A DNA stretch of 25,592 nt from a virus: the IMG/VR virus record IMGVR_UViG_3300025769_000749, positions 1-25,592 of that record. One strand, written 5' to 3'. The notes beneath the pieces were generated by a model that searched no databases, was not told where the DNA came from, and saw nothing but the letters and a program-made list of their open reading frames with translations. Shown here piece by piece: positions 8,476 to 23,999 of the stretch. How positions within the stretch are numbered: the first letter of the stretch is position 1; every line of letters starts with the position of its first letter. A program made the translations under genes and the position numbers.

Positions 8476-8879
8476 CAAATGTCTCCCTCCTTACGGATTT
8501 CGGAATGTTTTACGGAAAATTCTCCACCAGGATATCGTGATTTGAGTTTATCAACATTCATCTCAATGATATCATCAAGAGAAATATTGAGACCCATACA
8601 TGCCTGTGCAACATACCACATAATATCTCCAAGTTCACGTTTGAGATGAAACAAGTTTTCTTCATTGACAGGTTTACCCTGAAAGATAATCTTCTTTACG
8701 ACTTCAGTAAACTCACCTGCTTCGGCACACATACCAACAGAGGCAGTGAGAAGTCGATGTGTTTCAAATCCTTCTCCACGAAGTTCTTGAATACGATACT
8801 CAAAGGCATCGGCATCTTTACTTGGTTGAGATGTGACGGCATTCACAAACTCAAGATATGCATCAGTGTTTACGGTCAT
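8475..8879 (-). CDS. mazG: MazG-type nucleoside triphosphate pyrophosphohydrolase
   Basis: MazG enzymes hydrolyse (d)NTPs to monophosphates. In cyanophages they have been linked to nucleotide salvage and to lowering host alarmone levels, although their substrate preference is debated. The 134-residue protein holds the all-alpha NTP-PPase signature: E53-A-G-E56 and E82-L-G-D85, which together coordinate magnesium, followed by IMWYVAQACMGLNISL. Length fits the short phage form with one MazG domain. Its ATG overlaps the gp41 C-part stop (ATGA), linking it to the helicase operon. Confidence 0.93.
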   Translation of the reverse strand: MTVNTDAYLEFVNAVTSQPSKDADAFEYRIQELRGEGFETHRLLTASVGMCAEAGEFTEVVKKIIFQGKPVNEENLFHLKRELGDIMWYVAQACMGLNISLDDIIEMNVDKLKSRYPGGEFSVKHSEIRKEGDI

Positions 8880-9298
8880 GAAAATTTAAATCCCTCAAAT
8901 GATTTCTTAGGTCTGTCCTCGTTATTATACTCTTCTTCTTGTCCAGAGTCAAGTATATTATCTTGTGCTGACTGTTCGCAATCATAAAGACGCATCTTGG
9001 AACGATCAATTCCAATCACAAATCTCTTATTGACTACAGTATCATTATACCTATTCTTTAATTGCTTCACCATTATCTGTCCAATCTGTTCAAGTTCCTC
9101 AGTGCTAATAAGGGCAAACATAAGATCAGCAGTAGCAGGGAGACCAAAGGACTCAGAAGTGTCAGTAAGGTCAACATCACTGCTACTATTATGTGTGAGA
9201 ATAGCATTCGCATAGAACAAATGATTTCCAGATACTTCAATATCTATAAGTTCTCTTTCATCAAGTTCTTCAATTTTTAGAATTTTTTTCAGCATCAT
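8876..9298 (-). CDS. 41: DNA helicase gp41, C-terminal part made as a split-intein fusion
   Basis: This gene encodes 37 residues of C-intein followed by the last 103 residues of helicase gp41. The intein part ends in NHLFYANAILTHN, with the terminal His-Asn needed for Asn cyclisation. The extein begins SSSDVDLTDTSESFGLPATA, the conserved C-terminal helicase segment (DLTDTSESFGLPATADLM-AL). Serine is the +1 nucleophile. The start is ATG-ATG at 9298, three bases after the stop of the small ORF upstream, so reinitiation is likely. Joined with the N part and after loss of both inteins the helicase would be about 458 residues, close to T4 gp41 (475). Confidence 0.95.
   Translation of the reverse strand: MMLKKILKIEELDERELIDIEVSGNHLFYANAILTHNSSSDVDLTDTSESFGLPATADLMFALISTEELEQIGQIMVKQLKNRYNDTVVNKRFVIGIDRSKMRLYDCEQSAQDNILDSGQEEEYNNEDRPKKSFEGFKFS
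9188..9298 (-). mobile_element. C-terminal half of a naturally split intein (gp41-1 type)
   Basis: The 37 residues run from MMLKKILKIEELDEREL to FYANAILTHN, containing intein blocks F (LIDIEVSGNHLFYANA) and G (ILTHN, then S). From memory this differs from the gp41-1 C-intein at a single residue (A for D before ILTHN). Confidence 0.93.
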
Positions 9299-9300
9299 TT

Positions 9301-9528
9301 TCAATTCAAAATACCATAACGAAGTTTATAAAAAGCAACTGATTGAGGATAAGTTTCAGTATAATTTGTACTTCTGTGTTTCTTTCCAACAACTAATGTT
9401 TCTGTTCTTGGAGGAGTATAAGAAATCTCATAAAGAAGCATTGTTTTATTATTCTCTTTGAGTTCTTTTACAAATTTCACAATCTCATCAAAGTTCTCAC
9501 CACTAACTTTGAAGTATAACTTACACAT
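9301..9528 (-). CDS. Unknown 75-residue protein lying between the split intein halves
   Basis: This ORF sits exactly between the two fractured helicase genes: one base after the N-part stop and two bases before the C-part ATG. In described fractured genes this spot holds a homing endonuclease. The product here (MCKLYFKVSGENFDEIVKF, then KTMLLYEISYTPPRTETL, then QSVAFYKLRYGILN) has no LAGLIDADG, HNH, GIY-YIG or Vsr-like motif. Predicted strand-helix-strand order suggests a small alpha/beta fold. It could be an unrelated cargo gene, a replacement or the last relic of an endonuclease. Real translation is supported by the tight start/stop packing. Confidence 0.65.
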   Translation of the reverse strand: MCKLYFKVSGENFDEIVKFVKELKENNKTMLLYEISYTPPRTETLVVGKKHRSTNYTETYPQSVAFYKLRYGILN

Positions 9529-9529
9529 A

Positions 9530-11287
9530 CTATTCCTTCACATAAAGACACATACCTTCTTTCAAACCCCCTTTGATATTCACTTCACCATTTTGAGTTG
9601 GGAACAAGTGTTCTTCACTACAAATGATTTCTTTACCATCTTCCAAAGTAATTTTGTAAGATTTCTTTTTAGATTTTGGAAAAACATTTAAAACTTGATT
9701 ATAACCAGTGTTTGAAAGCACCAAATCTCCAACTTGAATATTTGAAAGTTCTTTCATACCTTGCGGTGTTTGAACTTGTGTTTTCAAGTCCAAGCAATAC
9801 CCTGAACGAGTAGTTTGTGTCGCACTAACAATCGGGACCTCGGCTTCTCCAGCCAACCCTCTAAGCTCCTCTGCAATAGATTTAATATAACTATATGAAT
9901 TGACAGACATGCCTGACTTATAACGGGAGGAAGCACATATATTAAGGTAATCAATGAAAATAATATCAGGTCTAAATGACTTCTTAAGTGCAAGCTCACT
10001 AAGAAGTGCTTTAAAATGTCCACTATGTGCAGATGCTGTAGGGTATTCTTTAATTATAAGTGTGCCTTGAGTTTTTGCTGCTAATTTAGTTACTTTATTT
10101 TCAAACGTTGACTTAGGCAAATCTACAATATTCTGAATAGCAACATCTAATAAGTTTGCGTCAATTCGTTCAGCAATTTTCTCTTCTGCCATCTCCATTG
10201 TAATATAGAGAACGTTTTTCCCTTGGAGCAACACGGAGCTAGCAACATGGCACATGAATAAAGACTTGCCGACACCAGTATTATGAGAGGAAACTCCATT
10301 AGTATAATACCTATGATTTGGATGATTTACATTAATATCAACAATAGGTATTTGATTTCCTGTTTTAGATACACTACCAAGTTTATAACCACTCTCGGTT
10401 AAAAAATGCATTATTTTATATTTTTTATAAAGATGCGATGCACTCATCCACCCCAAAGATGTCTGAAATAAATGATCGGCATTACATCTTATAAGTTCAT
10501 CAATGCCATTGATTCTCAAAACATATTCATCATACATTCCTTTGTTAATAAAGAAATTAACTGGAACATATCCATCAGGAGAATCAACTTCTATCTCATA
10601 TCCATTATCAAGTAATGTTTTGATTTCAGCAATTGTTGTTTCTTTTTCAATCCACCAAGAAATCTTCCTAAATCTAATTTTAACTTTGGTTTCTGGATGA
10701 ACACACCCAGCAAGCGCGATAGTAAGAGTTTTATTAGATATACCCCCGCTCGTAATCTTATTAAGGTATTCGAGATCAAATGAAACCTTCTCCTCCTTCC
10801 TGTGATAGTACTCATATCTTTCTTGATAGTTTTCTAAGTAGTCATGTCCAATGTTGTTGTCAAAAGAAACTGCCAGTGCATCAGAAAGAATAGAAGGAAT
10901 CGCATCTCTACTCTTCTTCTCATCATTTCCATCTGCAATATGAATCGATTCCATCAGTGCAAGATAAATCGCACGATCACGACACCACTTTTCGGTAGTG
11001 TCTAATAACCATTCATTATCTACTGGAAGATCCGTAAACGAATTGCAGATATCTCTAGTTTCTTTAATCTCACTCTCGTTTAGATCTGTCCGATTCTCAA
11101 CCTCAATATTTAGTGCTTCGATTGTAATGGCAGAACCATACTTCACAATGAATTGAGTAATCTCCTCAAAGATTACTTTTTCACCTCTTTGCTCAAAATA
11201 TGTTGGTTCTATAAATGGAATGACTTTACGAGAATAATTTTCGTTGCATATTAAGTTTCTGAGAATTGTAGTCTCAATCCGTTCCAT
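9530..11287 (-). CDS. 41: Replicative DNA helicase gp41, N-terminal part, with one internal mini-intein and a C-terminal N-intein
   Basis: gp41 is the hexameric helicase of the T4 replisome. From the ATG at 11287 (chosen because MERIETTILRNLICNENYSR aligns with the T4 gp41 start) the product has 585 residues. Residues 1-194 are the N-terminal domain, 195-336 a mini-intein, 337-497 the RecA-like core with TGVGKS (P-loop), DIIFIDYLN (Walker B) and SATQTTRSGY, and 498-585 an N-intein ending at the stop. The first intein interrupts the Walker A loop (ALAG, then TGVGKS). The second break follows TRSGY, the conserved segment after motif H3. The uvsX stop overlaps the start by 14 nt, so uvsX and gp41 are coupled. 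Confidence 0.95.
   Translation of the reverse strand: MERIETTILRNLICNENYSRKVIPFIEPTYFEQRGEKVIFEEITQFIVKYGSAITIEALNIEVENRTDLNESEIKETRDICNSFTDLPVDNEWLLDTTEKWCRDRAIYLALMESIHIADGNDEKKSRDAIPSILSDALAVSFDNNIGHDYLENYQERYEYYHRKEEKVSFDLEYLNKITSGGISNKTLTIALAGCVHPETKVKIRFRKISWWIEKETTIAEIKTLLDNGYEIEVDSPDGYVPVNFFINKGMYDEYVLRINGIDELIRCNADHLFQTSLGWMSASHLYKKYKIMHFLTESGYKLGSVSKTGNQIPIVDINVNHPNHRYYTNGVSSHNTGVGKSLFMCHVASSVLLQGKNVLYITMEMAEEKIAERIDANLLDVAIQNIVDLPKSTFENKVTKLAAKTQGTLIIKEYPTASAHSGHFKALLSELALKKSFRPDIIFIDYLNICASSRYKSGMSVNSYSYIKSIAEELRGLAGEAEVPIVSATQTTRSGYCLDLKTQVQTPQGMKELSNIQVGDLVLSNTGYNQVLNVFPKSKKKSYKITLEDGKEIICSEEHLFPTQNGEVNIKGGLKEGMCLYVKE
9533..9796 (-). mobile_element. N-terminal half of a naturally split intein (gp41-1 type)
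   Basis: Eighty-eight residues from CLDLKTQVQTPQGMKEL (block A) to GLKEGMCLYVKE and a stop, with block B at ICSEEHLFPTQ. The N-extein ends TRSGY. This matches, from memory, the fast gp41-1 intein first found in ocean metagenomes by Dassa and co-workers, with about five changes in 88 residues. Confidence 0.95.
10280..10705 (-). mobile_element. Continuous mini-intein in the P-loop of gp41
   Basis: A 142-residue insert starts CVHPETKVKIRF (block A) and contains ELIRCNADHLFQT (block B with CNADH). It ends IVDINVNHPNHRYYTNGVSSHN (blocks F and G), followed by Thr as the +1 residue. Between blocks B and F there are only about 45 residues, so no homing endonuclease domain remains. Removing it restores ALAG-TGVGKS, a standard Walker A motif. 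Confidence 0.93.
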
Positions 11288-12293
11288 AAGAGAATTCTTT
11301 TTTCGCGGCAGCATCAAGTTGCTGCATTACTTCTTCTGTAAAATAAACTTCTGGGTCTTTCAGAATTGCCTTAGCATATACTTTTTTAGTCTCACCATTG
11401 ACAGTCATCTCATAACGACCGGCAACGTTCTTCCACATTCCGGCAAGTTCACCTAACTCAAGTAAACCATAATACTTATCAAGACCCCGATGATCATAAA
11501 ATAAACGAATATTGACCTCCTTGTTCTCTTTACTTAGACGTGACTTAGCAGTCTTTGCCTTGATAAGATTTCCAATGACTTCTGTTCCATCTTTTTCTTT
11601 CTTCTTGCTAAGATGAATAATGGTACTGGCAGCATACTTAAGACCACTACCACCTCCCATCTCTTTAGTAGGAACATAAGATCCGATAACGTCATAAGTG
11701 TGGTTGGTAACTATCATTGGAATATTAGCCTGCCCCAACTTGAGTGTCAACATTCTGAAGGCACCCTTAATTAGTTGTGATTTTGTCATGTCACGAACCT
11801 GCTTTTCATTGAGTGCATCAGTAATCTCTTTCTCAGTCGAAAGCATTCCTAAAGAGTCTAGCACAAACATGCAGGGTTTGCGGTCTTCCTCAGGTGATTT
11901 TTGATACATATCCACTGCCTTGAGTGCCTTACTACGGAACTCCTCAACAGTTACTACATTAACCACGGCAAGACGCTTAAGGTCAATTCCTCTGCTTTCT
12001 AAGAGTGACTTATTGACAGCTGCCTCAGTATCAAAATAAAGGCAATATGCATCGGGATTAGTATCCAAGAAGTTCTTGACCACTGCGAGTGAGAAAAAAG
12101 TCTTTCCAGTAGAACTTTCCCCAGCAATTGCAGTGATTTTATTCCCAGAAACACCACCACGGATAGACCCAGATACAAGAGCATTAAAGATGAACGAACC
12201 AGTATCAACGTATGTTTCAGTTTCGTCAATCTCGCTTGCAAGTTTTGTGAAGTCATCTCCAATCTCTTTTACAATCTCGCGTAAGAAGTCCAT
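11274..12293 (-). CDS. uvsX: UvsX RecA-like recombinase
   Basis: UvsX drives strand exchange for recombination-dependent replication and repair. The 339-residue protein has a Walker A motif GESSTGKT (58-65), a Walker B segment CMFVLDSLGML (141-151), and a polar loop around EMGGGSGLKYAASTIIHLSK. The length is slightly below that of T4 UvsX (391 residues), as in cyanophages. It starts nine bases after the HNH gene and overlaps gp41, so it probably shares the promoters at 12761-12846. Confidence 0.95.
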   Translation of the reverse strand: MDFLREIVKEIGDDFTKLASEIDETETYVDTGSFIFNALVSGSIRGGVSGNKITAIAGESSTGKTFFSLAVVKNFLDTNPDAYCLYFDTEAAVNKSLLESRGIDLKRLAVVNVVTVEEFRSKALKAVDMYQKSPEEDRKPCMFVLDSLGMLSTEKEITDALNEKQVRDMTKSQLIKGAFRMLTLKLGQANIPMIVTNHTYDVIGSYVPTKEMGGGSGLKYAASTIIHLSKKKEKDGTEVIGNLIKAKTAKSRLSKENKEVNIRLFYDHRGLDKYYGLLELGELAGMWKNVAGRYEMTVNGETKKVYAKAILKDPEVYFTEEVMQQLDAAAKKEFSYGTD

Positions 12294-12301
12294 AGTCTAA
12301 T

Positions 12302-12733
12302 TTATCTCCTAGTATTATAACCATAAAGTTTGGGAGAAGTCAAGGCCTCCTCCATAGCCATTCTTCGTTTATTCAACCTATATCGTAAGGTTTGGTGCCC
12401 CATACCATATTCTTCTGCCCATTGAGAGATAGTCTTGGTCTGTCCATTATATTCTAGTTTTTTGTTGTTACTTCTATTATTCTCCTGCTCTTTCATAGTG
12501 GCCCATTTACAATTGTCTGGGTAATAACCTCGTTCATTATCTATTCGTTCTATTGTACCACCATCTGGTCTCTCTCCCATATCAGATAAGAAGGTAAGAT
12601 ATCCATTGTCACCCATCCAACCTTCATATATTCCTCTTTTATTATATTCAGGTCTCCACTTGTATCTAGCAACCATCGCAGTCCAACTTATCCAAGTAGG
12701 CGTGTTGGTCTGTCCGTGTTTTACTCTTGGCAT
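12302..12733 (-). CDS. Free-standing HNH homing endonuclease with C-terminal DNA-binding helix-turn-helix
   Basis: The 143-residue protein has the pattern WISWTAMVARYK, then FLSDMGERPDGGTIERIDN, then GYYPDNCKWATMKEQENNR (about residues 14-86). This is the His-Me finger/HNH subtype with D/N and GY-P-N-C-WAT, common in free-standing phage endonucleases. It continues with a NUMOD1-like helix-turn-helix, YNGQTKTISQWAEEYGMGHQ (95-114). It separates gp43 from uvsX. Because the first catalytic residue is Glu-62 rather than His, activity is uncertain. It has its own promoters, so it may have settled next to, or brought, the start of the uvsX/gp41 operon. Confidence 0.85.
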   Translation of the reverse strand: MPRVKHGQTNTPTWISWTAMVARYKWRPEYNKRGIYEGWMGDNGYLTFLSDMGERPDGGTIERIDNERGYYPDNCKWATMKEQENNRSNNKKLEYNGQTKTISQWAEEYGMGHQTLRYRLNKRRMAMEEALTSPKLYGYNTRR

Positions 12734-12851: not shown

Positions 12852-14210
12852 TTATACAAAAAATGATTCAAGGTTTACTTTTTTTTCTGTGCTCCACCCA
12901 ATCGCATCAAGAATAGATTTGAGTGGGTCTAAAAAACTCTTTTCAAATTGTAATTCATAATCTATGTATTTGTCAAGACCGAGTTCATGTGGAAAATCTT
13001 GAATAAATGAAATGACATTCTCCTGAATAATATTTGGTTTCTTCAGATAAATGAACTTGATTTTCTCACCATTATTGATAAGAGAATACTTATTATCAAG
13101 TTTCTTCTCCTTAATATAATGATTGAATAGTAGTGCTCCACGACAATGAATGGGAGTACCTTTAGCATAAATGTCAGAATGAGATTTATACTTTACAACA
13201 TCCGATACTGAACGGGGAAATGCAATCTGCTCCGGAGGAAGTGCCTTGAATTCTTTACGGCAATTATCAATAAAGTCAATTACTTCTTCTTCAGTACCAC
13301 TCATCATTAACTTGAGTCCGTCCTTAATCATCTGACGACATGGTGCCGGTGTAGATGATTTCACTGCCTCAATACCCATCATCTTGAGTTTAGGTTCAGA
13401 ATACTGAACTCCTTCACTATTCCATACATTGAGAATATAACGTTTCTTTGCAGTCCAAATGCCACGTTCTGCAATGTTCTCACGTTTCATAATCATCTTC
13501 TGTTCATATGCCGAAACGTAATCCGCAAGTTCCGTATAAGATTGTTCGATGAATGGTTCCAACTTGTCTTGGCAGATCTTATCAAGTAACTGAACAATCT
13601 TTGTTTTATCGTCAGACTTATTACTAAGAAATTTATCAACAAGAGGTCCCATATTAAGATAGATTGAGTCAGTGTCAGATGCGATGACATAATCGACTTC
13701 CTCAGTTTGTAAAATCTTATTTAGAAATCCATTCATCTTGTTCTCAATCCAACGAATGGAAACCTGACCTGAGAGAGTAATTGCCTCAGCATTCTCAATT
13801 TTAAAATATCTAAAATATTGATTTCCCACGCTTCCGTAAGCAGAATTTAATTGAATCTTGCGAGCCATCTGAATGTTGTTACATCGTGCAATCTCTTTCT
13901 CCAATGCTTTAGTCGGAGTTTTTTCATAATCTTGTTTTGCAATAAGCATCTTCTTCTTATAGATGGTGCGATCCTTGTAAATCTTCTCCATCAATTCGGG
14001 CAGCATACCTTTTACTCTACGATAGAGTGCTCCATTTGCTGTTATAGTAAGATTAACCTTTCTCAAAGGTTCCAAATCTAGATCTTGATTAAGAAGTTTA
14101 TCTACATTAACTTTATTGGAAAGTTCTCTCACTCTCTTAAGTGCATCAAGTTCTTCTGCAATTTCCTCACGGGTCATTTTACGAACATCTTTCCACATAT
14201 CATTGCTCAT
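12852..14210 (-). CDS. 43: DNA polymerase gp43, C-terminal part (fingers, palm motifs B and C, thumb)
   Basis: The 452-residue protein has polymerase motif B KIQLNSAYGSVGNQYFRY (118-135) and motif C SDTDSIYL (178-185), both needed for catalysis. KKRY at the palm-thumb junction and a C-terminal LESFFV tail follow; the tail could be the clamp-binding peptide. The first about 30 residues (SNDMWKDVRKMTREEIAEEL) form a charged helix and belong to the insertion point. The ATG overlaps the HNH frame's stop as ATGA with only a weak ribosome binding site, so translation may depend on coupling. The polymerase must be assembled from this and the 427-residue N part. Confidence 0.95.
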   Translation of the reverse strand: MSNDMWKDVRKMTREEIAEELDALKRVRELSNKVNVDKLLNQDLDLEPLRKVNLTITANGALYRRVKGMLPELMEKIYKDRTIYKKKMLIAKQDYEKTPTKALEKEIARCNNIQMARKIQLNSAYGSVGNQYFRYFKIENAEAITLSGQVSIRWIENKMNGFLNKILQTEEVDYVIASDTDSIYLNMGPLVDKFLSNKSDDKTKIVQLLDKICQDKLEPFIEQSYTELADYVSAYEQKMIMKRENIAERGIWTAKKRYILNVWNSEGVQYSEPKLKMMGIEAVKSSTPAPCRQMIKDGLKLMMSGTEEEVIDFIDNCRKEFKALPPEQIAFPRSVSDVVKYKSHSDIYAKGTPIHCRGALLFNHYIKEKKLDNKYSLINNGEKIKFIYLKKPNIIQENVISFIQDFPHELGLDKYIDYELQFEKSFLDPLKSILDAIGWSTEKKVNLESFFV

Positions 14211-14422
14211 AGGATTTTATTATACTTTTTACGATTTTCAGTTGCTGTTAGTATTTGCAAATTATTTTCGTGATGTTTTCCTCCTTTGGAAATTGGAATG
14301 ATGTGGTACACTTCGTGGGGAATACCAGTTTCTTCTGTCAATTTAACTGCCTCTTCATAAGAGGATATCCTACAGCATTTTTTCCAATTCCGCAATACGA
14401 TTATTAAGTTGATGTTTTCCAA
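14207..14422 (-). CDS. HNH endonuclease frame inside split gene 43 (start uncertain)
   Basis: The frame reads TEETGIPHEVYHIIPISKGG, then KHHENNLQILTATENRKK. This is a compact HNH motif: H in YHIIP, N in NLQ and N in EN, of the HEVDHIIPL...NLQ class. The frame has no ATG; the furthest-upstream start is a TTG at 14422 that overlaps the end of the polymerase N part, and another TTG lies at 14341. The frame differs by +1 from the polymerase frame across the run GGAAAAAATG, so a frameshift fusion is conceivable. It may be functional, or an eroded homing gene. Aspartate common in HEVDH is Tyr here. Confidence 0.5.
   Translation of the reverse strand: MENINLIIVLRNWKKCCRISSYEEAVKLTEETGIPHEVYHIIPISKGGKHHENNLQILTATENRKKYNKIL
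14208..14375 (-). mobile_element. 168-nt in-frame insert that splits gene 43
   Basis: Removing 14208-14375 joins the ATG codon at 14376-14378 (end of the N part, AAAATG) to AGCAATGATATG of the C part. The joined frame would read RIAELEKM-SNDMWKD without a stop. The length is 56 codons exactly and both edges carry ATG. The insert encodes only the HNH frame and is too short to hold a group I intron core. Exact ends are an inference. Confidence 0.55.
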
Positions 14423-15653
14423 TTAATGTTTCAGGGCTTATGCTGTATTGCATAATTAAATGTGGATAAAGAGAATTTAAATCAAAACTTACAACATAAT
14501 CATACTTTCCCGGTACAGGTTCCTTGACATAGGCACCTGCATATTTTGCATCCTTGTCTGAACGTTCTTTGGGTGGAATTACAATGTTTTTCTTTTTGAG
14601 ATAATTGTAAATGATCGCATCCCACATACGAACTTGATAAAACACATCACTATAATTCACCTTAGCATCATATGCCATAGTGATTGCAAGTTCAATCAAT
14701 TTCATCTTGTCTTCCATACGGTCAACAAGTTCCACGTCAATGATATTATACTCTACAAATTTCTGCCACCCGTTAGTATAGAAATCTTTAAATGTATCAA
14801 ACTCAGAGTGATCAAGTTTCTTTTGTCCAAGTTCTACACTTGCAATATAGTCCAACCGATAAGACTCTTGTGCCTTATAAGTGAACTTCTTATATAGATT
14901 TAGGTAATCAAGTTGCGTAATACCCCCAACATCATAAGAGATCTGTTTACGACCCATTACAATAGTCTCACGTTCAGTCACCAATCCCCAAGGTGAGAGT
15001 CGTTTCATCAACTTCTCACCAAGAATACGGTCAATACGCCTCACCAAATAAGGCATATCATATAGTTCACTATTCCATCCAGTCACAACTTCAGGAGTAT
15101 TAGTCTCAATCATCCACCAGTTTATAAAGTCATTAAGTAACTCATATTCTGTTCTGAAACTTTTGTAGATAATATTCTCCTGCCTATTATCGAATGGTCC
15201 CTGACCCCAAGTGCGAATTTGTTTTGTAGTGTAATCCTGTACAGTAATAAGAAGAACTTCTTCTGCGGCAGACTCTACATCAGGGAATCCATTCTCAGAT
15301 TTTACCTCAATATCAATCGTAGATATTTTGATTTTTGTAGTGTCGAATTTAACTTCTTCTTCAGGATACATCTCGGAAATATACTGACAGATGTATCGGT
15401 CATTACCATAGACCTTAAAGTTTTTTACACCATCATATTTCTTGATGAACTCTCTACAATCACGAACAGTTCCTGGATCTATTGATTCAACATAATCTCC
15501 CTCAAGAGTTTTATATTCTGTTTCTTTATTGGAAGGAACAAATAATGTAGGATAAAACTTTTCTCTTGTGGCAAAGTGCCGTCCATTCTCATACCCACGT
15601 ACAAGAAAGTGGTCACCGACCATTTGAACGTTAGTGTAAAATCGATGAGACAT
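14370..15653 (-). CDS. 43: DNA polymerase gp43, N-terminal part (exonuclease and palm motif A)
   Basis: The 427-residue protein is a B-family polymerase N-terminal portion. It has the proofreading motifs Exo I DIEV (D114, E116), Exo II TGWNSELYDMPYL (191-203) and Exo III YNIIDVELV (302-310), followed by palm motif A SFDLNSLYPHLI (389-400). After ISPETLIG it runs into a short helix (NRIAELEKML) and stops. The break is between motif A and the fingers, so this half alone lacks motifs B and C and cannot polymerise. The full protein with the insert removed would be about 877 residues, near T4 gp43 (898). Confidence 0.95.
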   Translation of the reverse strand: MSHRFYTNVQMVGDHFLVRGYENGRHFATREKFYPTLFVPSNKETEYKTLEGDYVESIDPGTVRDCREFIKKYDGVKNFKVYGNDRYICQYISEMYPEEEVKFDTTKIKISTIDIEVKSENGFPDVESAAEEVLLITVQDYTTKQIRTWGQGPFDNRQENIIYKSFRTEYELLNDFINWWMIETNTPEVVTGWNSELYDMPYLVRRIDRILGEKLMKRLSPWGLVTERETIVMGRKQISYDVGGITQLDYLNLYKKFTYKAQESYRLDYIASVELGQKKLDHSEFDTFKDFYTNGWQKFVEYNIIDVELVDRMEDKMKLIELAITMAYDAKVNYSDVFYQVRMWDAIIYNYLKKKNIVIPPKERSDKDAKYAGAYVKEPVPGKYDYVVSFDLNSLYPHLIMQYSISPETLIGKHQLNNRIAELEKML

Positions 15654-19200: not shown

Positions 19201-19577
19201 CCTTTTCCTCCAGTATCAAATTTTGATTTAATAAAATTAAGTTGTTCTTTTGTTAGAATTTTCAAAGCCTGTTTTGCCTTCTCATTACTATAACCATAAT
19301 AACTTTTGACATAATCTAGATCTTTGATCTTATCTTGTCGGAGCCAGGGAGAAAATCTCTTCTTTTTCCTCACAATATTTATAAAGAAATCATATTGTAA
19401 CTTCTTAGGGAGGAAATTATACTTATTCATTTCATTCGTAAACATCAAAGTATCGAGATGTCCAGAGAAACAACGATTGATAATATAAGGAGGATATTCT
19501 TTTTCGAGTGAAGGGTCTTCATCAATCAAATGCTTCTTAGTTTGATTGATAGAATTAAGCCAGTCTTTCAGTTCCAT
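19197..19577 (-). CDS. 62: Clamp loader small subunit gp62
   Basis: gp62 joins four gp44 subunits to load the gp45 clamp. The 126-residue protein (T4 gp62 187) keeps the N-terminal LKDWLNSINQTKKHLIDEDP, the central YPPYIINRCFSGHLDTLMFT, and LPKKLQYDFFINIVRKKKRF and FSPWLRQDKIKDLDYVKSYY typical of cyanophage gp62. It lies between the DruA-like protein (TAATG) and regA (ATGA). Confidence 0.9.
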   Translation of the reverse strand: MELKDWLNSINQTKKHLIDEDPSLEKEYPPYIINRCFSGHLDTLMFTNEMNKYNFLPKKLQYDFFINIVRKKKRFSPWLRQDKIKDLDYVKSYYGYSNEKAKQALKILTKEQLNFIKSKFDTGGKG

Positions 19578-20647
19578 TATCTAATAATTTCGATTTTTGA
19601 GTCAACTTTCCAAAGTTCTAATTCAGTTCTTAACTTTCCTTCATTTTTTAATTTTTCATAACGTTTAGACGCTTTCTTTTTCCACCATTCAATAACATCT
19701 TCAGGTTCATAACCAAACTTAGAAATATAGAAACGTTTCTTTTCTGTTAATTTTTTTGCATTTTCAATACAAAGATTAAACTCATCTAGTTTAGGATAAC
19801 CTTTAAGAGAGTTTCTAATGATAGAAATCATCTTAGTTTGAATCTTCAATTTCTTTGAAGACTTATCTGCAGATATTAAACGCTCACCATTATTTGCATT
19901 ATCATTAAACCACCAAAACATTTTTCTAAAATACTCATCATGAAATAATGGAAGAAAATTACTTTCAGTATCTCCAACATGTCTAAGAAAAGGTTTAAGA
20001 CCATCATACATTGAAACTCCTTTTGTAGTTCCATACAAAGAAGTTGTTTCAAAATACTTCAAATCAGTATCATACTTTTTATCAAACTGCCTTTTAAGTT
20101 CATTAGATGATGCAAGAAGAGCAAGTAATTTACCGCCCAAATAGTTAAACCCAAATGGTTGTACTGGAACAATATTAAATCCCATAACAAATTCTTGATT
20201 AATTTTAGATAGAGAAATCACTTCATTGAAATAATTATTCCTTGGTTTTGAATTTATAGTAGGAGATCCAAATCTAATGACACCAACAACTTTATTAGTT
20301 GTATTTTCAACTACAATCCATTTCAAAGTTCTTCCTGGAATTGCTTCTTCAATTGGATTTGAAGCAGTATCATGAAGTATTTCAGAATACAATTCTTGAT
20401 TATATTTGGTAGTAGGTTTTGAACTGGTATCCACAACATGAATACTAAAATTCATATCATTTGGATGAATATGAAAATCTGAAAAGATATCATCTTCAGG
20501 ACCAAATAACTTAGAAGATGATTTACTAATTCTACTTTCCTTTACAAACCTAAGGTAATCATCAATACGATTAAATTTAGAATAGTATTCTATAAATTGA
20601 TCTGCTGCCCATATTGCTTTTTCTTTAGATAGTTTAGGAGTAATCAT
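19577..20647 (-). CDS. DruA/DUF4338-like protein in the clamp-loader block
   Basis: The 356-residue protein starts at the ATG at 20647 (the longer reading needs GTG). A core of LKWIVVENTTNKVVGVIRFG (108-127), PFGFNYLGGKLLALLASS (164-181), KYFETTSLYG (197-206) and GVSMYDGLKPFLRHVGDTES (210-229) follows. This matches the DUF4338 pattern as I recall it: (V/L)-G-FG-P, NIxPxxxNLxxxxL-L, LLETFVD, GT-Y-A-NW--VG-T. DruA belongs to the Druantia anti-phage system. The lysine-rich C-terminal third may bind nucleic acid. A replication role is also possible, because it sits in the gp44-gp62 gap. Confidence 0.6.
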   Translation of the reverse strand: MITPKLSKEKAIWAADQFIEYYSKFNRIDDYLRFVKESRISKSSSKLFGPEDDIFSDFHIHPNDMNFSIHVVDTSSKPTTKYNQELYSEILHDTASNPIEEAIPGRTLKWIVVENTTNKVVGVIRFGSPTINSKPRNNYFNEVISLSKINQEFVMGFNIVPVQPFGFNYLGGKLLALLASSNELKRQFDKKYDTDLKYFETTSLYGTTKGVSMYDGLKPFLRHVGDTESNFLPLFHDEYFRKMFWWFNDNANNGERLISADKSSKKLKIQTKMISIIRNSLKGYPKLDEFNLCIENAKKLTEKKRFYISKFGYEPEDVIEWWKKKASKRYEKLKNEGKLRTELELWKVDSKIEIIR

Positions 20648-20843
20648 AATCACGAGGATGATATTTCAAATATTCCCAGAAGGTCAATTTCATTTCTTTC
20701 TGGGTCATACCACAATGTTTTGCGGCAGTAGGTAAATTCATTGTAGCACGAAAAAGTGCTTCATTTGCTTCATTTACATTCTGGGGAGTAGTTTTAACTT
20801 TCTCCTCCACCATTTTGCTTTTATCAATTTTTAGTAGTCCCAT
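20634..20843 (-). CDS. Small protein with helix-turn-helix-like segment
   Basis: The 69-residue protein has an extended basic start, then NEANEALFRATMNLPTAAKH and CGMTQKEMKLTFWEYLKY. The spacing TAAKHCGMTQKEMKLTFWEY resembles a helix-turn-helix, as in small DNA-binding regulators. The start overlaps the previous stop by one base (TGATG). It stands directly before the DruA-like gene with an overlap of 14 nt, hence a possible regulator or partner. Function is not established. Confidence 0.6.
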   Translation of the reverse strand: MGLLKIDKSKMVEEKVKTTPQNVNEANEALFRATMNLPTAAKHCGMTQKEMKLTFWEYLKYHPRDYDYS

Positions 20844-23465: not shown

Positions 23466-23999
23466 TCAAAGGTAATAGTAATTTGGAAATGATTTACTTC
23501 TCATCCTCCAACTTGCAGTATCCCTATGGATACCAAGTATTTTAGCACATTCTTTCACGGATTCATAAACTACCCCATCAACATAACACTTTTTACCCAT
23601 AGATTTTGAAAGATTATTTCTATGCTCCTCAGTAAAAGGAACACCTTTTCTTGGATGAGAATTTTTAGACCAGTATTCTCTCTGCGACTTACGCATTTTA
23701 TCAATAGAATCTTTGGTGTGTTTGGTTCCCCATAAAGAATTTAAAGAAGGGTTTAACCATTCACAATAATCTTGTTCTACTTTTTTGAGGTCTTCGTCTT
23801 CGTGTATCCACTTGACGACTTCAATAACAAAATTGTGATATCCATACTTTAAAAAATTTTCATAAAGTTTAGGGCAATCCATTTTATTACTGTTGCACAT
23901 AGTTATATGTTTAGCAAATCTAAGCATATAATTTTTTTCAGTAGAACCTATGTAGTTTTCCCCTGTTATTTTGTTCCTTATTTGATAAACGCAACTCAT
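23466..23999 (-). CDS. GIY-YIG homing endonuclease with NUMOD repeats
   Basis: The 177-residue protein starts CVYQIRN (3-9) and YIGST (16-20), the GIY and YIG halves, with R27 in LRFAKH, E75 in VEQDYCEWL and N83 in NPSLNS, all expected catalytic residues. The C-terminal DNA-binding part has two NUMOD3-like helices (GTKHTKDSIDKMRKSQREYW; GVPFTEEHRNNLSKSMGKK) and a NUMOD1-like end (YVDGVVYESVKECAKILGIH). This is the domain order of free-standing T4 Seg-type enzymes. It separates gp44 from the preceding genes; its translation seems to be controlled by a hairpin. Confidence 0.92.
   Translation of the reverse strand: MSCVYQIRNKITGENYIGSTEKNYMLRFAKHITMCNSNKMDCPKLYENFLKYGYHNFVIEVVKWIHEDEDLKKVEQDYCEWLNPSLNSLWGTKHTKDSIDKMRKSQREYWSKNSHPRKGVPFTEEHRNNLSKSMGKKCYVDGVVYESVKECAKILGIHRDTASWRMRSKSFPNYYYL

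Follow-up and report, generated by a model that had tools for sequence, protein, structure and literature searches.

A two-cistron DNA polymerase gene carrying a homing endonuclease remnant in a T4-like marine cyanophage

Gene 43 and the segment between its halves

The window analyzed here is a 25,592-base virus record from a T4-like cyanophage, the host group of which is the marine cyanobacteria. At the DNA level, gene 43 shares 91% identity with its counterpart in Synechococcus phage S-SKS1, which carries a single intact gp43; in the same place, the window has two open reading frames (ORFs), 43A and 43B, both on the minus strand and, as the first-pass annotation had recognized, in the same reading frame (14370-15653, 427 aa; 12852-14210, 452 aa). 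The product of 43A matches Pfam DNA_pol_B_exo1 and DNA_pol_B, as well as PHROG phrog_262 (E 5e-171), and is 97% identical to intact S-SKS1 gp43 across residues 4-410. All catalytic motifs have been kept, with the exonuclease motifs and motif A in 43A and motifs B and C in 43B. These positions confirm that the break lies between motif A (SLYPH) and the fingers, as had been proposed, and the active site is therefore divided between two products. Relatives of the locus, designated here by L numbers, were gathered by scanning viral contigs for the 71-aa ORF named in the first-pass annotation, and the features discussed below are as follows.

14370..15653, minus strand: gene 43A, encoding the gp43 N-terminal half with the exonuclease domain and palm motif A (427 aa; ORF ending in NNRIAELEKML and a stop)
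12852..14198, minus strand: gene 43B, encoding the gp43 C-terminal half with the fingers, motifs B and C, the thumb and the C-terminal peptide, from Pfam and PHROG matches
14154..14381, minus strand: whole foreign segment (43A tail KML and stop, HNH remnant, 43B head extension), from alignment with L110, L083 and L082
14207..14422, minus strand: the 71-aa ORF of the first-pass annotation, with a TTG start and no ATG, from the ORF list
14207..14365, minus strand: remnant of an HNH homing endonuclease gene, its last ~52 codons (Pfam HNH; 96% identical to the full HNH gene in L014-L016)
14360..14365, minus strand: deletion junction, with TCCT common to both ends, from comparison with L014-L017
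13974..14453, minus strand: tract 87-100% identical to the divergent phage L014, against mostly 60-85% in the rest of the gene, from sliding identity

The ATG at 14210, which adds four residues to 43B, is not conserved; the conserved start is the MWKDV at 14198, used by most relatives and preceded in most of them by GAG or GGAG, which in many alleles sits within the last codons of the nuclease gene. Between 43A and 43B, Pfam detects HNH-type sequence in the window (E 5.6e-6), as it does in the whole L014 gene (E 7.8e-7), and the original proposals that gene 43 is split by an HNH element, and that this element lacks an ATG start, both hold. The TTG with which the ORF opens is not a genuine start, because the opening ~18 codons of this ORF correspond to the end of 43A in a different frame, and the HNH domain is confined to residues ~20-71. 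The full-length HNH gene of the relatives encodes ~188 aa (186-193 aa), starts at its own ATG ~45 nt past the 43A stop and has an N-terminal helix-turn-helix. The window keeps ~52 of the ~188 codons, having lost, with respect to L014, ~450 nt (a length measured against relatives, not a direct ancestor) that comprised the start, the helix-turn-helix and a Cys-rich region. Furthermore, the catalytic Asp of HEVDH, which we take to be a metal ligand, as in HNH enzymes such as I-HmuI, is present in 25 of 26 full-length relatives and is Tyr in the window (HEVYH); the sole full-length relative without it, L023, is close to the window in gp43. Given the deletion and the substitution, the window copy, which has neither a start of its own nor a DNA-binding part and thus fails as a complete free-standing gene, is by its sequence a dead remnant and not a working homing endonuclease. 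What had been described as a compact 168-nt HNH insert does contain the HNH motif, but is really what a deletion has left of a ~188-aa homing endonuclease gene. A sequence search for a solved structure of the HNH protein found none, and isolates searched for the whole HNH gene yielded partial relatives only.

The borders of the foreign segment can be traced through three intact, metagenomic alleles with a long loop (L110, L083, and L082). L110 reads NNRIAELE-SNGKNDE-ELEALKQVREL at this point, and the split alleles read NNRIAELE-(K/S)ML and a stop, followed after the spacer by MWKDVRKMSREEIVE-ELEALKQVREL. The foreign part hence extends over about 14154-14381, includes the 43A tail (KML and stop) and the 43B head (M..WKDVRKMTREEIAE), and replaces ~7 codons of the intact long-loop gene. 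The first-pass annotation had placed the insert at 14208-14375, with removal restoring the gene, and had called for alignment with uninterrupted gp43; such alignment upholds the element as foreign to intact alleles and moves its borders. An exact 168-nt insertion is ruled out by the intact alleles and by a frame relation that varies among split ones, and the use of S-SKS1 alone as the empty site is misleading, since its loop is short and the flanks in the window come from another allele.

Alleles at the split site and their mobility

With alleles counted as distinct when their 43A differs, 49 are split at the window's site, of which 32 carry an HNH gene, 10 a GIY-YIG gene, 5 nuclease remnants only, and 2 neither; the window allele itself recurs in six other contigs (L008-L013). 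The signature common to the split is NNRIAELE(K/S)ML and a stop, then MWKDVR(K/Q)M, with the HNH or GIY-YIG gene between. Where whole genes occupy the spacer, the halves are 0.56-1.1 kb apart, and some HNH genes are followed by small ORFs or by a Dam-type methyltransferase, a 151-aa adenine methyltransferase in L028, L031, L032, and L073 (Pfam Dam E 3e-30 in L028). The remnant alleles stem from no fewer than four distinct deletions (window type; L049/L050; L069/L115; and L080/L132/L133, which derives from a GIY-YIG gene). Measured as far as MWKDV, the spacers that they leave are 171 nt in the window type and 108, 103, and 96 nt in the others, and the split has been kept in all of them. Empty alleles, intact and with the long loop, are represented by L110, L083, L082, and the S-CAM7 type. 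A divergent clade split at the window's site includes L121-L124, whose clean split has a spacer of 20 nt free of nuclease remnants, and L131, whose spacer is 558 nt long. In the phage collection, no isolate has the window's split or the same 43B head, and all such alleles are metagenomic contigs.

The nuclease parts of the HNH and GIY-YIG proteins are unrelated, but the two share a 44-aa helix-turn-helix module (43% identity over 44 aa, E 3e-12), located N-terminally in one nuclease type and C-terminally in the other. The simplest reading of this arrangement is that one DNA-binding module would aim two nucleases at a single site. Most HNH alleles also have a late-promoter-like box (TATAAATA), set within an inverted repeat, in the spacer that follows 43A; the deletion has taken it from the window. 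The arrangement resembles the hairpin and late-promoter control of I-TevI and of Aeromonas phage Aeh1 mobE, where a hairpin with a late promoter precedes the nuclease gene (PMC2988022). In the HNH leader hairpin, 93% of cells pair, and the leader folds far more stably than its shuffles in one RNA (z -5.4) but reaches only z -2.4 in the window-like L014; no pair in the alignment changes on both sides, and the hairpin hence has no covariation support.

Several patterns in the alleles point to a mobile element. The 480-nt neighborhood listed above, in which the window matches the divergent L014, covers the whole foreign segment and its flanks. Among 22 HNH alleles, 43A and 43B core distances are well correlated (r = 0.88), and the correlation of HNH gene distances with those of the 43A and 43B cores is much lower (r 0.35 and 0.31), as is that of the 50-residue 43B head with its own 43B core (r 0.37). 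Mapped onto a 43A tree, allele state (HNH, GIY-YIG, remnant, intact, or other) has to change 21 times, and a single small clade brings together the window, the intact S-SKS1, and HNH, GIY-YIG, and remnant alleles. Judging from these comparisons, the endonuclease gene, along with its flanks, moves without being tied to the polymerase, and the identity tract and distance pattern have the form expected of a footprint of homing with co-conversion. A further patch of gp43, around motif B (NSAYGSVGNQYFRYFKIEN, 13780-13865), drops to 58-73% DNA identity with the divergent relatives compared, within sequence that is similar on the whole, and may be another conversion tract or confer immunity to another nuclease.

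Origin of the split and alternative explanations

In the model we propose, a free-standing HNH homing endonuclease gene would have inserted itself, in marine cyanophages, into the part of gene 43 that encodes a surface loop, located between motif A and the fingers, and so divided the gene into cistrons 43A and 43B. The element would provide the stop of 43A, together with a start and a leader for 43B, so that synthesis of the two halves continues and they most likely form one polymerase. It would then spread through homing, co-converting its flanks; in other phages, the position is occupied by a GIY-YIG gene, unrelated but equipped with the same helix-turn-helix module. In the lineage of the window, an S-SKS1-like gp43 would have acquired an L014-like element that subsequently underwent the deletion and lost the catalytic Asp, with the polymerase remaining split. 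The anatomy, the relatives, the mobility pattern, the deletion, and the selection on both halves can be read from the sequences themselves; the intact nucleases would cleave a target for which L110, L083, and L082 are candidates, and the order of events is one that we infer. From HNH entry through the two-cistron split, homing, and later deletion to a two-chain enzyme, we hold the proposal with considerable confidence. More tentatively, each invasion could leave a split that loss of the nuclease does not heal, and the elements could be driving a one-way fission of gp43 into a two-chain polymerase across marine cyanophages, with HNH and GIY-YIG genes bearing the same helix-turn-helix module competing for one site in the replicative polymerase; we consider this extension plausible, although the balance tips somewhat against it.

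The order of fission and invasion could also be reversed, with gene 43 first splitting around a short spacer that HNH and GIY-YIG genes later used as a safe site. The clean 20-nt splits of the divergent clade agree with such an order, as do the 43A tail and 43B head that HNH and GIY-YIG alleles have in common, which would suit two invasions of a single split state. Whether the split or the nuclease came first is the same question that arises for Aeromonas phages 25 and 44RR, for which this scenario has been discussed (PMC2988022). Nevertheless, the 43B head belongs to the mobile tract and not to the polymerase background, as its weak correlation with the 43B core indicates, intact long-loop alleles are interspersed among split ones on the 43A tree, and the clean splits may themselves be complete deletions. 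Fission before invasion is hence rather unlikely, though it deserves serious consideration.

The remaining alternatives concern how, or whether, a functional polymerase is obtained from the split gene. The split polymerase might be a decaying pseudogene in a phage replicated by another enzyme, and the window, as a 25.6-kb fragment, would leave room for a second copy elsewhere. Against this, both halves are intact in split alleles and retain the catalytic motifs, their dN/dS between split alleles is mostly 0.04-0.16 (~0.05-0.24 for whole HNH genes), and 12 larger records, of up to 140 kb, have one gp43 apiece and no second one. Decay is accordingly a very improbable explanation. Strong purifying selection on both halves and the sharing of one active site favor a two-chain polymerase well above any other reading; very probably, the working enzyme consists of two polypeptides, as had been suggested from the window alone. 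By analogy with the Aeromonas split polymerase and with Aeh1 NrdA, for both of which two-chain function is established (PMC2988022), the 43A and 43B chains would assemble with each other. The structure predicted for intact gp43 with the long loop is poor as a whole (mean pLDDT 48.6), and only a local helix-turn-helix hairpin at 409-441 reaches pLDDT ~75; the split falls in the turn of this hairpin.

The common frame of the window halves, with an ATG at each edge of the insert, would suit ribosome bypassing or frameshifting to a single full-length polymerase, as in T4 gene 60. However, the halves are in frame in just 18 of the 49 distinct split alleles and out of frame in the other 31, close to the chance expectation of ~1/3, and no conserved bypass or fixed frame relation was found among these 49. 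The shared frame in the window is thus due to chance and, with most relatives starting 43B at MWKDV, neither it nor the paired ATGs can serve as the signature that they had been taken for. In addition, relatives hold whole genes between the halves, and 43B has its own conserved start with GGAG or GAG upstream in most, so that bypassing has very little to recommend it. Removal of the insert from RNA as a group I or group II intron, or as what remains of one, is less probable still. A group I intron does occur in gene 43B of Aeromonas phage 25, and phage JSE has a putative group I intron with a truncated nuclease, but Rfam covariance models at the gathering threshold matched no intron in the window and 12 relatives (one tRNA, in L017 only) and no other RNA family in the window, and the element, where complete, is a free-standing gene that begins at an ATG of its own, with the stops and the 43B start conserved. 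The initial judgment against an intron is in this way borne out, and the RNA-level repair offered as an alternative has no support, given the same searches, the length of the gene-bearing spacers and the variable frame. Finally, post-translational joining by a split intein, as for gp41 3-5 kb away in the same window, can be practically discounted, given that Pfam detects neither intein nor Hint domains in the two halves, whose ends are polymerase helix, stop, and start.

Known split genes and other mobile elements

Split gene 43 was reportedly described in Aeromonas phages 44RR2.8t and 25 by Petrov, Ratnayaka and Karam in 2010. As in the window, gp43 is there divided into two cistrons, with or without a nuclease gene, but the split lies in the fingers (~476-480 in S-SKS1 numbering, against ~410 in the window), the phage 25 nuclease is seg-like and accompanied by a group I intron, and the host lineage is different. 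The two halves co-purify and are polymerase-active; phage 25 has a free-standing nuclease gene between 43A and 43B, and 44RR a short untranslated spacer with no nuclease (PMC2988022). Synechococcus phage ACG-2014f (KJ019101, from annotation only) likewise has gp43 in two pieces with small ORFs between, but its 43A ends at ~476 and its 43B starts at ~497, in the fingers, and no nuclease is recognized there. A split gp43 is also annotated in Acinetobacter phage Berthold, and the Aeromonas, Berthold, and ACG-2014f splits all lie in the fingers, ~65-85 residues further on than that of the window. Six relatives intact at the window's site (L105, L106, L108, L109, L082, and L138) have a gp43A ending at about 491-520 aa (for example, with EMKRRGIL and a stop), so that cyanophages have a second gp43 split site, in the fingers.

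Outside gene 43, the HNH gene mobE splits nrdA in Aeromonas phage Aeh1, where the two polypeptides work together, and insertion of the nuclease mobA is linked to the split essential gene 60/39 of T4 (PMC2988022). The former resembles the window's relatives in that an HNH homing endonuclease gene splits an essential enzyme, and differs in host gene and nuclease; the latter concerns a topoisomerase gene. Aeh1 mobE is not known to have given way to another type of nuclease or to have been removed by deletion. Genes fractured with split inteins, such as gp41-1, are said to have been reported by Dassa in 2009; these are similarly split marine-phage replication genes with extra ORFs between the halves, but there an intein rejoins the halves, and the window's gene 43 has none. 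No description of the window's gp43 split was found in the literature (open-licence papers). A split gp43 as such is known; what is new is the split site, the nuclease families, and the site shared by HNH and GIY-YIG genes.

The alleles form a natural series in a core replication gene, from intact through split with a live HNH or a live GIY-YIG gene to several independent nuclease deletions. This series allows tests of whether homing endonucleases cause permanent gene fission, whether split alleles are shielded from further cutting, and whether a single DNA-binding module is able to bring different nucleases to one site. It also supplies a second natural split point in a family B polymerase, of use for split-polymerase work, and implies that surveys using gp43 as a marker will miss or mis-call such phages.

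Several further features were noticed elsewhere in the window. Mobile protein elements interrupt the gp41 helicase gene (8876-11317): one intein-like insert follows ALAG/C, and a gp41-1-type split intein contributes its N half (E 5e-52 to PDB 6riz), after which come a 75-aa ORF (9301-9528) and then the C half together with the rest of the helicase. A further HNH nuclease gene (12302-12733; phrog_3377, E 8e-34) lies between 43B and uvsX and is missing in S-SKS1, where gp43 and uvsX overlap. A GIY-YIG nuclease gene with an I-TevI-like DNA-binding part (23466-23999) adjoins the clamp loader gene 44, and an ORF at 19577-20653 has a match to the DruA (Druantia) domain (E 1e-12), here in a phage genome.
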